Shown here piece by piece: positions 39,307-46,818 of a stretch of DNA of 46,818 nt. Made by a program: the position numbers and the translations under genes. The stretch comes from Candidatus Zhuqueibacterota bacterium (GTDB lineage Bacteria > Zhuqueibacterota > Zhuqueibacteria > Oceanimicrobiales > Oceanimicrobiaceae), in NCBI GenBank assembly GCA_029262005.1, contig JAJDAG010000080.1, positions 1 through 46,818 on the forward strand, in the 5' to 3' direction. The notes beneath the pieces were generated by a model that was not told the origin of the DNA, made no database searches, and saw only the letters and a list, made by a program, of their open reading frames with translations. Numbering within the stretch: the stretch's first letter is position 1; the number at the start of each line of letters is the position of its first letter.

Positions 39307-42300
39307 TTACAGATATTTACGTAACACGTCAATCAATACTTCTCGCTTGAAAGGCTTGGACAACGCCTCTGTGCAGCCGGCAGCCAGACATTTGTCAACC
39401 GCCTGCGTACCGTAATGGGCCGTCAGAGCAACAATCGGTACCTTGCTCAACGCGGCTGAATTGCGGATTCTGTGGGCTGCCTCATACCCATCCATGATGG
39501 GCATTTCCATATCCAGTAGAATCAGGGAAACAGGGTTGTTTCTCAATCTATCCAGAGCCTCCTTGCCGTTTCTGGCGTACAGCAACCTTAATCCTGACTC
39601 ACTTTTCAGAAAATGTTCAATAAGCAGAAGATTGTCCGGCGAGTCATCGACAATCAGTACTCTTGGACGGGAATCAATCCATTTTTCAATGGCCTGCAAA
39701 AGCGTTTTTCTCTTGACAGGCTTTGTAAGATATTCATCCATACCGCTGGACAAACATTTCTCGCGATAACCCTTAATTGCATGGGCAGTTAAAGCAACGA
39801 TAGCTGTACGACGCAGACCACGCTCTTTCTCAAATGCCCTTATCTTCTCAGTCGCCTGAAATCCATCCACATCGGGCATTTGAATATCCATCAAAATCAA
39901 ATCATATTGAAACTCCTGGACAGCCTGAACTGCCTGTGCACCATTTTCAGCCAACTCCACCAGGTAGCCGGCATCCAGAAGCATGGAAATTGCAAACTTC
40001 TGATTATCCGGCGTGTCTTCTACCAACAAAACAGAACCGCGTGGGTGCCACCTTTTTTCACCCATTGATGCAGACGTCAGACCGGACTCCATGCTGATGT
40101 TCAGAGCCTGGCCGATGCTTTCCAGCAACCGCGACTGCTTAATCGGCCTTAAAAGTGAATCAGCAATTCCCAACTCTTGTCTTCGACGCGAATCGAGCGT
40201 CTCTAATGAAGAAAGCATAATAATTTTTGAGCAAAGCGCTTCGTGCTTAACCGACTGCGCAACGGCAATTCCGTCCGGGTCCGGCATCTGGTGATCGAGA
40301 ATAAGCAGATCATACAATTGGTCTCTTTTTCGGAGCTCTGAAAGAGCGCCTAGCCCGCTATCAACCAACTTCACATTAAACCCTAACGGCAGCAAGAGCT
40401 TTTTAAGATGAGTTCGATTAATTTTATCATCGTCCACAACCATGACTGACATACCGTAGAAATCAAGCGCAGTTTGCTTTGTAACAACAGCCTCAGGCAA
40501 CGGCTTGCCAATCGGCAAGGTCAATTCGAAAAGGAATCGGGTTCCATGCTCCTGAGCAGATTCCACTCGCAGGTCACCACCCATCAGCTTGATGAGTGAT
40601 CGAGAAATGCTAAGTCCAAGCCCCGTACCACCAAATTTGCGAGTAGTCGATGAATCTTCTTGTGAGAATTTCTCAAATATTTTGTCCATGTTTTTCTGAG
40701 AAATACCAATACCGGAATCTGTAACCATAAAATTTACACAGCTCCTGCCATCATCCCGTTTTCCTGAACCATTACCCACCGCTGCTGTAGCAGACACTTT
40801 AATTTTGCCCTCTTCGGTGAATTTCAATGCATTACCGACTAAATTAATAATAATCTGTTTCAGGCGAGTTGGGTCACCGACGAGCCACTCGGGTAAATCC
40901 GGCGCAACCGAGCAGGAGAGTTCAAGCCCCTTTTCCAGAGCCTTCAACTCAAAGAGTTTAGCAGCACTGCGCACCGTATCACGCAGGTCAAAATCAATTT
41001 CCTCAAGCTGCATTTGACCCGCTTCAATTTTCGAGAAGTCCAGGATATCATTAATCAAATGCAGCAGTCCATCAGAAGAGGCGCGAACCACATCCAGAAA
41101 TCCCCGCTGCTCGCTATTGAGTTGAGTATTCAGGGCCAGTTCAGTCATGCCAACAATCGCATTAAGCGGTGTGCGAATTTCATGACTCATATTAGCGAGA
41201 AACTCGCTCTTGGCGCGGTTGGCCATAGCTGCTTTCTGCGCCAACTCTTTTGCCTGAGAAGACGTTTTTTCAAGCTCCGCATTTACCTGACGAAGCTCTT
41301 TATTCACCGTTTCCGCCATACGTTTGGCGTTTTGCACCGCAGCCTCAGAGTTTACTCTCTCAGTGATATCCTCCACAGAACATTCGTAATAAAGAACTTT
41401 CTTTTGACTATTCAGAACTTTTTTTGCGTTCTCTCTGATGAAAATAAGCGAGTCACCTTTCTTTTTAACCGCAATTTCCACTTTCTCAACGTCCCGCTCG
41501 CCGCTTTTTATTTTTTTAAACACCTCAACAGGAAGCCCGAGATAAACCGTTCTTTTTGAATTAATTCGGGGGGAAAGTGCCTTGACCGTCTTGATGTGAA
41601 GCATCTTCAGCAGCGCCGGATTAGCATCCAGTACATTTCCCTTAGCGTCGGCCCGGTAAAGCCCGATTGCTATATTTTCAAACAACGACCGATAGCGCGT
41701 TTCGCTTTCACGTAAAGCTTTTTCTTGCGCCATCAACTGTTGACTGCTTGCTTCCAGTTGTTGAAATGCCGCGGCGAGTTGCTGCTCATTTGCTTCGAAC
41801 CGAGCATGCCTGGACTGTAACTGGCTATTGGTTATAACAACTTCTTCAGCAGATTTACCCCGCTCTGACAGGTACACGGTGTTGTGCTGTTTGATGGATG
41901 CATTCACTTTCTGCAACTCTGTCAGCAAGGTTTGATTTCGAAGCACTTGTTTGTGATGTTCTACTGCGCTGTCTACAATAGAAATAAGTTCACCCAGCCC
42001 TCCGTCTTTGTAAATATAGCCAAAAGGCTGATATTTGTTGATGATTTCACAGGAACTCTTGACGTCGCGGTAAGCCGAATAATAAATAACAGGAATCTGG
42101 TGGAATCTCTTCTTCAACTCCTCAAACCACTCGAAACCATCTTTGCCATCCATCTGCAGATCGAGAATAACCGCGTCCACTTCGTTGGTTATCGTCTTGA
42201 TGCCTTCATGCCCGCTTGAACAGGTAATAGTTCTGAATTGGTGGCCCAATACGCTGCTCAGAGAATCGCGAACCAGTTTGTCATCATCGATTACCAAAAT

Positions 42301-42378
42301 AGTCCGGCTTTCTTCGGGCTTTTCAATTATGCTCTGAATACTTTTTATGTTCGTAATGTTTTCCAAAGCTTTCTGCAA
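39307..42378 (-). CDS. Hybrid sensor histidine kinase: REC-PAS-HisKA-HATPase-REC-REC-REC
   Basis: 1023 residues, soluble. Receiver 1 (about 26-142) has the acidic DDD cluster, phospho-Asp D73 (VILDLQMDG) and K124. A coiled coil (150-225), a PAS domain (about 227-345) and another coiled coil lead to the HisKA H-box with H399 ([15 protein letters not shown]), then HATPase (about 500-625) with [19 protein letters not shown] and [16 protein letters not shown]. Three more receivers follow: one at 645-760 with DHQMP but Arg in place of the Lys-Pro lysine (LRPIK), and two complete ones (LMDIQMP..LTKP and LLDMEMP..LSKP). The start is TTG; an in-frame TGA lies six codons upstream and AAGGG is 7 bases before it. 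It lies 22 bases after the pseudokinase gene and is its paralogue. Confidence 0.93.
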
Positions 42379-42400: not shown

Positions 42401-44917
42401 TTATTCAGAGCCTGGGCCGACAAAGCGATCAATAATTTTAAAAAGAAGTTCTTTGCGAATGGGTTTTGTTATGGTTGCAGTGCAGCCGGCGTCGAGACAC
42501 TTTTTTAACCGGGTTTCATCTGAATGCGCTGTCAGGGCAACTATTGGAACATGTGTTCCATTCTCGATTTTACGTATTTGTGCTGTTGCAGTGTAGCCAT
42601 CCAGCACGGGCATCTCCATGTCCATCAGGATCAATGAAAATTGGTGTGCCTTAAATGAGGCCACCGCCTCTTCCCCGTTCTCAGCAAAAAACACCTGACA
42701 TTCCGGTCTCTTCTGAAAATACTTTTTCATCAAAACCAAATTGTCTTTTGCATCATCAACAACCAGGACGCTAGGCGGTGTGTCCACCCAGTTACCAATA
42801 GTTTCTATCAGTATTGTTTTTCGGATCGGCTTGGTAATAAAATCATCCATACCCCCTTCCAGGCACTTTTCCCGGTACCCTTCGATGGCATGAGCCGTAC
42901 AAGCAATAATTGGCACTCGCGCTAAATCATTGTCAGATTCATACTTTCTAATCTCTGTCGTCGCTTCAAAGCCGTCCATTTCAGGCATATAAATATCCAT
43001 CAAAATGGCATCAAACCTGCGTTGACGAACTGACTCGATTGCTTCCAGGCCATTCTCAGCATGAGCGACGTCATAACCAGCGCGCTCAAGCAGTTTGGTG
43101 GCAAGAATTTGATTGTCCTTGTTGTCTTCAACGAGTAGTATCTTTGGTCGCATATTTTTCTGCTCCATGCCCTGACTCCCTGCGGACAATTCATCTGTTG
43201 GTTTAGAAGTAACTTGCCCGATCTCAGCATGGACCAGCGCGAGCAATGCAGACTGTTTTACCGGTTTTGATATGAACCTGTGCACACCGTACTCAGCCAT
43301 CAATTCAGGGGCGGTCCCACCAAGTGGTGTGATAAGAAAGACCTTCGAATCAGCAAATTTTGAGTCGGTGTGAACTTGCTTTAGAAACTCCAGTGTCGAA
43401 GTAGTACGCACGTCATGCGCCACGAGGATAATGGCTGGAGGCGCCTCAATCTGTTGTAACTGCGCATAGGCATTTGTTACTTCTGAACACAGTGAAACTT
43501 GCAAACCGGCGTACTCCAAAACCTTTGCCAGGCACTGTCGACTTAAATCATTTTTATTGACGATGAATGCCCGGCCAACAGATTGTGAAAGTGGCTTACT
43601 TTCTGCCGGCGTTGCTGTGGAAGCCACCGACACTACTAACTTAAAATGAAAACTACTGCCAACGCCCTCTGTGCTCTCGACCTGGAAATCACCGCCCATC
43701 ATGTTAACGATCATTTTTGCTAAATACAGGCCCAGATAAGTCTCATCCGCCTCGCCTTCAACCTTCAAGACCTCATTTAGAATTTGTTCAACTTTCCCGG
43801 CACTAAATCCGGCACCGGTGTCATTAACCTTAAAATGCAGTGTCACGGTCTTCGAAGCGGATGTTTCATCAGCTACTTGCAAGACCTGCAAAGCTACCTG
43901 GCCCGACTTAGTCATTTTAATGGCGTTGTCCAACAAATTCACCAAAACGCGACGCAACCGAACCGGATCAGCAAAGATTTGTTGAGGAACAGCCGGCTCC
44001 ACAAAGCACAGCAAGTCCAACCCCTTGGCTTGAGCCTTAAGCCCAAAAATTTCAGTGACCGATTCCACAAATTCCCACAAATTGAATAGAGTGTTTTCGG
44101 GTTCTATTTTTCCGGCCGCAATTTTTGAATATTCAACCATGTCGTCAATCAAGGCAAATAGCACTTTGGAGGAAGACTCAATGATGTGAACAAATTCCTG
44201 TTGCGGTGAGTGCAACTCAGATTTTCGCAACAGCTCGGTTATCCCCGCAATCGAATTAAGAGGTGTGCGAATTTCCCGACTCAGATTGTAAAGAAAATTA
44301 TTATCAAATTTGCTTGCAGTTTTTGCCTTATCGGCCATCTCGGAAGCAAATGAAGTGGCCTTGCTGAGGTTTGCCGTAACTTCTTCCAACTCAGCCTTGG
44401 CCGCATCCACTGCGAGCCGTTCTTTTGCCAGCGCCACCCTCAGTGCTTTTACATCCGAACGATCCTTGACGAAAAAAACTGTTTCGTCAGAGGCCTCCCA
44501 GGTTACTAAAATTTCGGTTAACTCAACTGGAAAAGATGCGCCATCCCGCCTGACCGCATCCGTGCGAATCGCCTTGTTCGAGCCAGGCTCGCCCGGCAGT
44601 GTTGCAGCCTTACCTGTTTCCTTTCTATCAATCCATGCCCCCAGCCCGGGAAAAACGATGGCAATGGGTTGCCCAATCAGGTCACTGGCCTGCCACTGAA
44701 GCAGGTGCTCAACCTGTTCGCTCAGCCAAAGGACTTTACCAGCCACATCAACCGCGATGGTATCGAGAGAACGCCATGCCGAATTAACAGTGTGCCTGAT
44801 TGCCGATGGATCCGGCTCCTTCCTTTTCCATAAACGCAACATAAGTACCACGCTTATTGCAACACCGAGCAGAGCAAAATGTCGGTATTCAAAAAATAAG
44901 TACAGTTTTGTCAACAA
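42401..44917 (-). CDS. Membrane hybrid kinase paralogue with His-to-Arg H-box (likely pseudokinase), three receivers
   Basis: 838 residues: one short membrane segment (about 14-28), PAS (about 40-160), coiled coil, HisKA-like helices, HATPase-like domain (about 315-430) and three receivers. The H-box reads NLSREIRTPLNSI with Arg at 214 (codon CGG) where the phosphorylated His should be. N-box (LLDNAIKMT) and DTGAGF are kept, but the last glycine motif is LYLAKMIVNMMGG rather than GLGL. Receiver 1 (about 445-565) lacks the phospho-Asp (ILVAHDVRT), while the next two are intact (LMDIYMP..ITKP and LMDMEMP..ITKP). The start is TTG with no clear SD, since an in-frame TGA lies two codons before it; the next TTG is possible. 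It cannot autophosphorylate in the normal way, so acting as a scaffold, ATP sensor or phosphate sink is inferred. Confidence 0.9.
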   Translation of the reverse strand: MLTKLYLFFEYRHFALLGVAISVVLMLRLWKRKEPDPSAIRHTVNSAWRSLDTIAVDVAGKVLWLSEQVEHLLQWQASDLIGQPIAIVFPGLGAWIDRKETGKAATLPGEPGSNKAIRTDAVRRDGASFPVELTEILVTWEASDETVFFVKDRSDVKALRVALAKERLAVDAAKAELEEVTANLSKATSFASEMADKAKTASKFDNNFLYNLSREIRTPLNSIAGITELLRKSELHSPQQEFVHIIESSSKVLFALIDDMVEYSKIAAGKIEPENTLFNLWEFVESVTEIFGLKAQAKGLDLLCFVEPAVPQQIFADPVRLRRVLVNLLDNAIKMTKSGQVALQVLQVADETSASKTVTLHFKVNDTGAGFSAGKVEQILNEVLKVEGEADETYLGLYLAKMIVNMMGGDFQVESTEGVGSSFHFKLVVSVASTATPAESKPLSQSVGRAFIVNKNDLSRQCLAKVLEYAGLQVSLCSEVTNAYAQLQQIEAPPAIILVAHDVRTTSTLEFLKQVHTDSKFADSKVFLITPLGGTAPELMAEYGVHRFISKPVKQSALLALVHAEIGQVTSKPTDELSAGSQGMEQKNMRPKILLVEDNKDNQILATKLLERAGYDVAHAENGLEAIESVRQRRFDAILMDIYMPEMDGFEATTEIRKYESDNDLARVPIIACTAHAIEGYREKCLEGGMDDFITKPIRKTILIETIGNWVDTPPSVLVVDDAKDNLVLMKKYFQKRPECQVFFAENGEEAVASFKAHQFSLILMDMEMPVLDGYTATAQIRKIENGTHVPIVALTAHSDETRLKKCLDAGCTATITKPIRKELLFKIIDRFVGPGSE

Positions 44918-45073: not shown

Positions 45074-45421
45074 TTATACTTCGTCATGCTGAAGTATACT
45101 AACGGCCTCTTCATCGGTAGGAACAATGCGAAACAAGGTGTCAGTCCGTGTCAGGCGAAACATCGTCATGACTGTCGTTCCGGCACCTGATATAACCACC
45201 TCACCATTCGCTCCAACAGCATTTTTGGTTGAAACCAGAGCGCCCAGGCCAGTGCTATCAATAAAGTCAACGGAAGAAAGATTGAGAACTATCTCCGTTT
45301 CCCCGCTATTTATTTCCTTGACCACGCTTGTCTTGAAGTCATCTGCGATTCTTGAGTCGAGACGATCATGTTCAACAGTCACTACGAGAACCTTGCCTAC
45401 TTTTCTCGTTTTAGTGTGCAT
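45074..45421 (-). CDS. STAS-domain anti-sigma-factor-antagonist-like protein
   Basis: 115 residues, a single STAS domain of the RsbV/SpoIIAA family: VLVVTVEHDRLDSRIADDFKTSVVKEI, then SSVDFIDSTGLGALVSTK with the DST loop (S56/T57) that carries the regulatory phosphate in relatives, and FRLTRTDTLFRIVPTDEEAVSIL. In the classical scheme the unphosphorylated protein binds an RsbW-type kinase to free a sigma factor; no RsbW or PP2C phosphatase gene is present here. Its place between HPt and hybrid kinases suggests that the phosphorelay and the STAS partner-switch are linked. GGAG is 7 bases before the ATG; the gap to HPt is 30 bases. Confidence 0.9.
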   Translation of the reverse strand: MHTKTRKVGKVLVVTVEHDRLDSRIADDFKTSVVKEINSGETEIVLNLSSVDFIDSTGLGALVSTKNAVGANGEVVISGAGTTVMTMFRLTRTDTLFRIVPTDEEAVSILQHDEV

Positions 45422-45451: not shown

Positions 45452-45760
45452 TTACTCCTCTTGCAGCACGATTTTGACGACATCCAAATATTCAGATAAA
45501 TTGCCTTTCATCCGTTCAATTTCATCAACATCATGAGCCAGCGCCGCCTCTTCAATTACCTTGCCGATTTCAGTAATTTCATTAAAGCCGTAGCCACCGC
45601 CAGAACCTTTCATGCTATGCCCGAGTCTTCTGATTTCATCAAACTCGCCATCATGCAATAGCTGTTCTATAACACCAACATCGTTACGGCGGTTTTCCAT
45701 AAAATCCGGGATTAGGTCTTCAAGGTCCGGGTCAACATAAACGATCTTTTCTTCGGCCAT
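45452..45760 (-). CDS. HPt histidine phosphotransfer protein
   Basis: 102 residues with the HPt core LGHSMKGSGGGYGF (H48, K51, G52) on a four-helix layout. An N-terminal VDPDLEDLIPDFMENRRND segment is typical of HPt proteins encoded next to hybrid kinases. It passes phosphate between receiver domains. The two hybrid kinases downstream bear seven receivers, six with a recognisable phospho-Asp, and no other HPt is visible. GAGG lies 8 bases before the ATG. A 200-base gap separates it from the upstream IMPase gene, so this may be the first gene of its own operon. Confidence 0.92.
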   Translation of the reverse strand: MAEEKIVYVDPDLEDLIPDFMENRRNDVGVIEQLLHDGEFDEIRRLGHSMKGSGGGYGFNEITEIGKVIEEAALAHDVDEIERMKGNLSEYLDVVKIVLQEE

Positions 45761-45960: not shown

Positions 45961-46752
45961 TCAAAGAGATACGTTTCGAAACGGGGCTTCAAGAAAATTT
46001 GCGATCTTGCTATGAATACGAGAATTTGAGGCTAAAATGTGGCCAGATAGTAAATGGCGATCTTGCTCATAAATGTCGGTCACAGTGCCACCGGCTTCCT
46101 CAATGAGTAAAACACCGGCGGCAATATCCCATAAATTCAACCCTATTTCCCAAAATGCATCAATTCGTCCGCAAGCGACATAGGCAAGATCCAAGGCGGC
46201 GGATCCGGCCCGACGCAGATCACTGACCTGATGGAACATTGCCGAGAAAGCACGAAAATACGACGCCGCAAGATGCTTGGCCCGGAATGGAAAACCAGTG
46301 GCGATGAGACATTCGCTCAAATTATTCGAGGTAGAAACCTGCAATGGTTGCCCATTGAGAAAAGCGCCTTTGCCTTTTTCAGCATAAAAAAGCTCATCCC
46401 TGACAGGATCGAGCACAGCCCCCACGAGCAATTGATTTTTCTGCCTCAGCGCAACAGACACCGAAAAAAACGGAAAGCCGTGAATGTAATTTTTTGTGCC
46501 ATCAAGCGGATCGATTATCCACTGAAAATCGCTGCCCGATTGCAGTGCACCGCTTTCCTCCGCGAGAATATCATGCTCAGGGTGTCGCTCGCGGATATAG
46601 TTAATAATGGCTTTCTCTGACAACAAGTCCACTTTTGTGACAAAATCAAACTGCTGTTTCTTGCTAACCTGCCGCCGCATTTCGCTTTGCAGATTGTCAG
46701 TTAGAATTGCGCCACCCAGCTTCGCTGCTTCCACAGCAGTTTCGAGATACAT
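45961..46752 (-). CDS. Inositol monophosphatase family protein
   Basis: 263 residues, full length for the family. Metal-binding motifs are complete: AEESG, WIIDPLDGTKNYIHGFPFFSVSVAL, and LWDIAAGVLLIEEAGG. It should be a Mg-dependent phosphatase acting on inositol phosphate, or on another sugar phosphate or PAP (the family cannot be split from sequence alone here). The ATG giving MYLETAVEAAKLGG is chosen, with GGAG six bases upstream; the frame continues ten codons up with no SD. It lies upstream of the HPt gene but with 200 bases between them. Confidence 0.92.
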   Translation of the reverse strand: MYLETAVEAAKLGGAILTDNLQSEMRRQVSKKQQFDFVTKVDLLSEKAIINYIRERHPEHDILAEESGALQSGSDFQWIIDPLDGTKNYIHGFPFFSVSVALRQKNQLLVGAVLDPVRDELFYAEKGKGAFLNGQPLQVSTSNNLSECLIATGFPFRAKHLAASYFRAFSAMFHQVSDLRRAGSAALDLAYVACGRIDAFWEIGLNLWDIAAGVLLIEEAGGTVTDIYEQDRHLLSGHILASNSRIHSKIANFLEAPFRNVSL

Positions 46753-46818
46753 AAAATGCTCCAATCTATTGCAGTTCCACAACAGTCACGCCATAGTCAC
46801 CCTCATTCCATGCAGCCA

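Follow-up and report, generated by a model that had tools for sequence, protein, structure and literature searches.

Gene content of the locus

The window analysed here is a stretch of DNA of 46,818 nucleotides, and the genes discussed lie on its minus strand. At their centre is PK, a gene for a protein with the domain order of a hybrid histidine kinase and an arginine at the site of the phosphorylated histidine. Hpt and STAS genes are found upstream of PK, and a second hybrid kinase, PT, is found downstream. The features are listed in the direction of reading.

45961-46782, minus strand: inositol monophosphatase-family gene, a conserved neighbour in syntenic loci
45452-45760, minus strand: stand-alone Hpt, phospho-His motif GHSMKGSGG retained
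45074-45421, minus strand: STAS anti-sigma-factor antagonist, Ser of DSTG retained
42401-44917, minus strand: PK, a pseudo-histidine kinase of 838 aa (TM, PAS, HisKA with Arg214, HATPase with eroded lid, pseudo-REC1, REC2, REC3)
44093-44320, minus strand: DHp of PK; ExxT motif (E-I-R-T) retained, His gone; about tenfold accelerated on the PK branch
44276-44278, minus strand (read 44278-44276): codon CGG, Arg214 at the phospho-His site (LSREIRTPLN), the one Arg in the class, where 106 matches have His
43622-44092, minus strand: CA (HATPase) of PK; N and G1 boxes retained; F-box, ATP lid and first G2 glycines gone
43220-43576, minus strand: REC1 of PK, a pseudo-receiver; NK replaces the DD pair and Ala the phospho-Asp; degeneration ancestral to the clade
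42782-43150, minus strand: REC2 of PK, a complete receiver (D641)
42422-42778, minus strand: REC3 of PK, a complete receiver (D766)
39307-42378, minus strand: PT, a hybrid kinase 22 bp downstream of PK (REC-PAS-HisKA-HATPase-REC-REC-REC), every catalytic motif present

The PK protein begins with one hydrophobic helix followed by a PAS domain. Pfam finds the PAS, HisKA and HATPase_c domains and three receivers, all over cut-off, with lower scores than in PT for both HisKA (56 bits vs 83) and HATPase_c (62 vs 102). The sole upstream start that includes the membrane helix is a TTG at 44915-44917; no clear ribosome-binding site was seen there by eye, and the true start may differ.

Arginine at the phosphorylation site

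The translated PK reading frame contains ...LYNLSREIRTPLNSI..., with the arginine at residue 214. The preliminary description had reported Arg in place of the phospho-His, and both the translation and the codon bear this out. Around Arg214 the remaining box residues (E, R, T, P, L, N) are retained, and no alternative His is found at the H-box position. The HisKA, HATPase_c and receiver architecture of a hybrid kinase is present, with the phospho-accepting His absent. Histidine is encoded by CAT or CAC, and CAT is the codon at the matching His of PT. CGG is two bases away from either, which rules out a single miscalled base. A sequencing or assembly artefact behind Arg214 would fit a draft genome of 205 contigs, but we regard it as barely credible, given the two base changes from His to Arg, a lid deletion that stays in frame, and the 25-30 or so further PK-only changes in the DHp that accompany the arginine.

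The same description held that the EIRTPLN core, the HATPase domain and two receivers were kept. This is correct for EIRTPLN, for the N-box (NLLDNAIKMT) and G1 (DTGAGF), and for the receivers: REC2 is complete with E597/D598, D641 and its Lys, as is REC3 with D721/D722, D766 and its Lys. It does not hold for the F-box, lid and G2 of the HATPase, which are eroded. The intact form IFEKFSQ...GGTGLGL has become ILNEVLKVEGEADETY----LGL, in which the F-box is lost, four residues are deleted in frame and G2 is reduced, in agreement with the altered last glycine motif described earlier. In the alignment this part of PK reads ILNEVL...ETY----LGL and matches neither the F-box nor the G2 motif of the ATP lid. 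REC1 carries NK in place of the DD pair and Ala in place of the phospho-Asp. PK matches the published description of a pseudo-histidine kinase (PMC12632262) in having a recognisable kinase domain that lacks a catalytic residue. The replacement of His by Arg, together with the eroded lid and G2, suggests that PK has lost the ability to autophosphorylate.

To place this change among related proteins, we counted residues at the site. PK's genome has 71 HisKA matches; among the 59 kinase cores whose alignment covers the column (13 alignments that end short of it are left out), His occupies the site in 58 and Arg in one. A codon scan of 63 genomes from this class for [x]-E-[ILMFV]-R-T-P-L-N, with CTN, CCN and CAR left out at the site, gave 106 matches with His, one with Arg (PK) and two with other residues, the last two in frames of 19-47 aa and therefore attributed to chance. 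We considered whether Arg is a shared family trait and rejected this, as it was seen in no further kinase from either the class or the phylum. The phylum gave a second Arg match (L199), in a 137-aa frame that has no kinase features. By sequence, the His is missing from about 0.9% of HisKA domains (PMC12632262), and loss of the phospho-His as in PK is thus a rare but already known state.

Orthologues and origin of the change

The gene order inositol monophosphatase-Hpt-STAS-kinase is also found in two genomes of the same family but other genera, G002 (L118) and G003 (L119), whose syntenic kinases have His and full ATPase motifs. In a tree of the kinase core and receivers, PK joins these two orthologues (G002_807 and G003_844) with a bootstrap of 100 (99 for the receivers alone and 91 for the core alone), while PT branches elsewhere. 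From synteny and tree placement together, the kinase native to the locus is PK, and PT is an additional one; PT is absent from the G002 locus.

All close homologues of PK have His, including the syntenic orthologues, and Arg is therefore derived in PK. It is known from one assembly. The expectation that Arg would prove a conserved or selected residue finds no support in this alignment, where the two sister genera both carry His. The preliminary description had itself named His in sister-genome homologues, with Arg in this assembly alone, as the observation that would tell against it, and this is the pattern among the genomes compared. It had also counted the receiver without Asp as part of the same event. 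The acidic pair of REC1 is already missing in the G002 and G003 orthologues, and REC1 branches are long in all three proteins; since these orthologues have His and a full kinase, the REC1 loss is older than the kinase loss and separate from it. Species order from part of RpoB had support of 59-72, too weak for the kinase loss to be dated from that tree.

Rates of change, reading frame and predicted fold

PK is 40-60% identical to its nearest orthologues, a distance at which synonymous sites are saturated, and no same-genus genome is available; rates were therefore compared in place of dN/dS. On a fixed tree, the DHp branch of PK measures 1.16 substitutions per site, against 0.06-0.34 in the other 13 proteins (median near 0.12), and its CA branch 1.29 against 0.10-0.79. 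The REC2 (0.50) and REC3 (0.53) branches both lie inside the range of the others (0.10-0.55 and 0.20-0.95, respectively). Relative to its relatives, PK has thus changed roughly 10 times faster in the DHp, about twice as fast in the CA, and at a normal rate in REC2 and REC3. Tajima tests of PK against either orthologue with three outgroups gave the same picture: 25-30 PK-only against 2-5 sister-only changes in the DHp (p from 2e-4 to 3e-6), p from 0.04 to 0.002 in the CA, and no rate difference between PK and the orthologues in REC2 or REC3. The acceleration could partly reflect positive selection or misalignment.

The frame is open for all 838 codons, with no stop or frameshift. The 233-codon kinase core was also put through a crude neutral simulation that ignores indels and selection; about 4-5 stops were expected at 50-60% identity, and the probability of observing none was about 0.01-0.02. 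Codon usage in the kinase core equals that of the remainder of the gene. The predicted fold of the core with REC1 has a mean pLDDT of 85.8 and a pTM of 0.81, and it matches solved structures of ShkA, RetS, ETR1, DivL and GacS, with ShkA (6qrj) the best at Z 25.4. Where the PK model has a short loop in the lid region, the PT model forms an ordered helix; lid confidence is low in both models, and this difference was given no weight.

These rates, together with the frame, codon usage and predicted fold, favour retention of the gene for the sake of its receivers and fold once catalysis was lost; they do not extend to selection on Arg214 itself. The earlier view of a pseudokinase with preserved receivers, as opposed to a decayed gene, is supported here, as the Tajima tests confine the change to the kinase core and the rates of REC2 and REC3 are unchanged. 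Decay of PK since PT assumed the kinase role would explain an Arg that is derived and unique to one assembly and the joint loss of the kinase motifs, and no same-genus genome demonstrates retention. A dying gene would be expected to relax everywhere, however, whereas in PK the receivers keep an ordinary rate, the frame is intact and codon usage is normal, and we consider decay improbable.

The structural matches also bear on a sensor role like that of DivL, in which the dead DHp of PK would bind a phosphorylated response regulator or receiver and inform PT, with the receivers secondary. DivL controls the hybrid kinase CckA and is a binding partner of DivK~P (PMC4211667), and its structure (4q20) is a strong match to the PK model at Z 20.8. 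DivL strongly conserves the patch surrounding the replaced residue and retains all its other motifs, while the DHp is the fastest-changing domain of PK relative to its relatives, and an Arg seen in one assembly cannot be demonstrated to be conserved. We rate a sensor of this kind as very improbable.

Related loci with and without the kinase

Two related loci link receivers of this type to the Hpt. In a Nitrospirae locus (L042:5855-9682), a hybrid kinase has the same kinase-REC-REC-REC core and, in one protein with it, an Hpt of the type encoded separately in the window, which connects the receivers of this kinase type with the Hpt. The G003 cluster has a gene for a REC-SpoIIE phosphatase between STAS and the kinase (L119:11552-12790, G003:C36). 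No REC-PP2C gene is found in PK's cluster, and the sole homologue found in the genome is a distant one on contig C114 with 36% identity. In G005 (L222:7609-8516, G005:C44), a lone REC2-type receiver comes after the closest Hpt homologue (63% identity), no kinase is present, and this receiver groups with the G003 orthologue at a tree support of 79. On the strength of the Hpt and this moderate tree support, the G005 locus appears to be a kinase-less version of the PK locus. Elsewhere in G003 (L223:5110-6327, G003:C56), a stand-alone protein of three receivers akin to those of these hybrid kinases was observed, with no kinase domain.

PK could work alone as a receiver protein. One such account has its kinase part as a relic scaffold, with REC2 and REC3 swapping phosphate with the Hpt, fed by any hybrid kinase and making no contact with PT. 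In keeping with this, the apparent equivalent in G005 retains just the Hpt and a lone REC2, G003 has its kinase-less triple receiver, and the many HisKA matches in PK's genome offer other possible sources of phosphate. Against it, a core held in frame with N and G1 boxes, ExxT and a confident fold is more than a pure linker needs, and the G005 equivalence depends on the Hpt and that moderate support. We consider this account possible but unlikely.

Proposed function

The reading we prefer, to which we give roughly even odds, is that PK is a RetS-like pseudo-histidine kinase, whose ancestor was the ordinary hybrid kinase in an Hpt-STAS phosphorelay locus, and that it takes or redistributes the phosphate of PT or the Hpt. 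PK retains its membrane/PAS sensor part, a predicted dimerisation-helix fold and two receivers predicted to work. It would pair with or dock on PT, a partner suggested by the adjacency of the two genes. REC2 and REC3 would accept phosphate from PT or the stand-alone Hpt, and PK would thereby damp or redistribute flow towards the Hpt and the STAS partner switch, as RetS does on GacS. With RetS as an exact precedent, a regulator, decoy or phosphate sink is plausible.

A broader reading, which we hold only tentatively and think unlikely as a whole, is that the locus displays steps in the conversion of a sensor kinase into a receiver protein across genera: an active kinase with pseudo-REC1 (G002 and G003), a pseudokinase beside a second active kinase (the PK locus) and a lone receiver beside the Hpt (G005). 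PK would then serve PT specifically, as its phosphate sink or gate, independently RetS-like in an uncultured phylum, with Arg214 fixed as a block of the phospho-site or a holder of a receiver.

Few pseudo-histidine kinases have been studied and their origins are little documented; the PK locus offers a comparison with His orthologues in the same gene order. The domain-by-domain rates show a kinase released while its receivers were held, and the adjacent PT is a testable partner. In PK's clade, formation of the pseudo-receiver preceded loss of the kinase. Further interest comes from kinase, pseudokinase and apparently kinase-less states at one locus in related genera.

Comparison with known systems

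PK is a further case, in an uncultured lineage, of a known protein type with precedents in DivL, RetS, CCNA_03265 and ChrS. Like PK, ShkA of Caulobacter has a pseudo-receiver lying between its kinase core and its true receiver (PMC12632262), but it is an active kinase with His. The laboratory-evolved ChrS of Corynebacterium glutamicum is a kinase turned regulator, through CA loss and acting via its paralogue HrrS (PMC9491836); unlike PK, it is non-hybrid, has His and arose by a frameshift in the laboratory. CCNA_03265 of Caulobacter is a hybrid with an HK domain without His and a retained receiver Asp, at an unrelated locus, and the authors who described it suggest that an Hpt phosphorylates it or that it heterodimerises with a different hybrid kinase (PMC11481889). 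In DivL, also of Caulobacter, the phospho-His is replaced (Tyr550) with the fold retained, and this pseudokinase has no autokinase activity and acts on a hybrid kinase (PMC4211667). DivL differs from PK in having no receivers, in retaining its N, G1, F and G2 boxes, and in a replacement residue conserved across many species, whereas the syntenic orthologues of PK have His.

In the HptB-HsbR-HsbA system, hybrid kinases signal to a stand-alone Hpt, then to a REC-PP2C protein and a STAS anti-sigma antagonist (PMC6482189). The PK locus similarly encodes hybrid kinase, Hpt and STAS together, and the G003 cluster adds the REC-SpoIIE; unlike in that system, PK's cluster has no REC-PP2C gene.

The closest parallel in our reading is RetS of Pseudomonas aeruginosa, the regulator of GacS. 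It has a degenerate HATPase and cannot autophosphorylate, and its REC2 is a phosphate sink for GacS; it also has transmitter phosphatase activity and inhibits GacS autophosphorylation (PMC5992135). HisKA phosphatase activity is aided by the conserved His but does not require it (PMC12632262), which makes the phosphatase route the least certain for PK and leaves the sink and inhibition routes. Mechanism 2 of RetS may be absent from PK, as RetS has His. The proteins closest to PK are intact kinases from the same family as PK, and its loss is therefore independent of that in RetS. RetS differs from PK in its H-box His (HExxT against RExxT in PK) and its sensor part, and PK has an extra pseudo-receiver. 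Both are hybrids with two receivers and a HATPase without proper G-boxes, the alignment shows similar erosion of lid and G2 (GSHLGL in RetS, TYLGL in PK), and a stand-alone Hpt and a STAS partner switch belong to the RetS network, as Hpt and STAS genes do to the PK locus.
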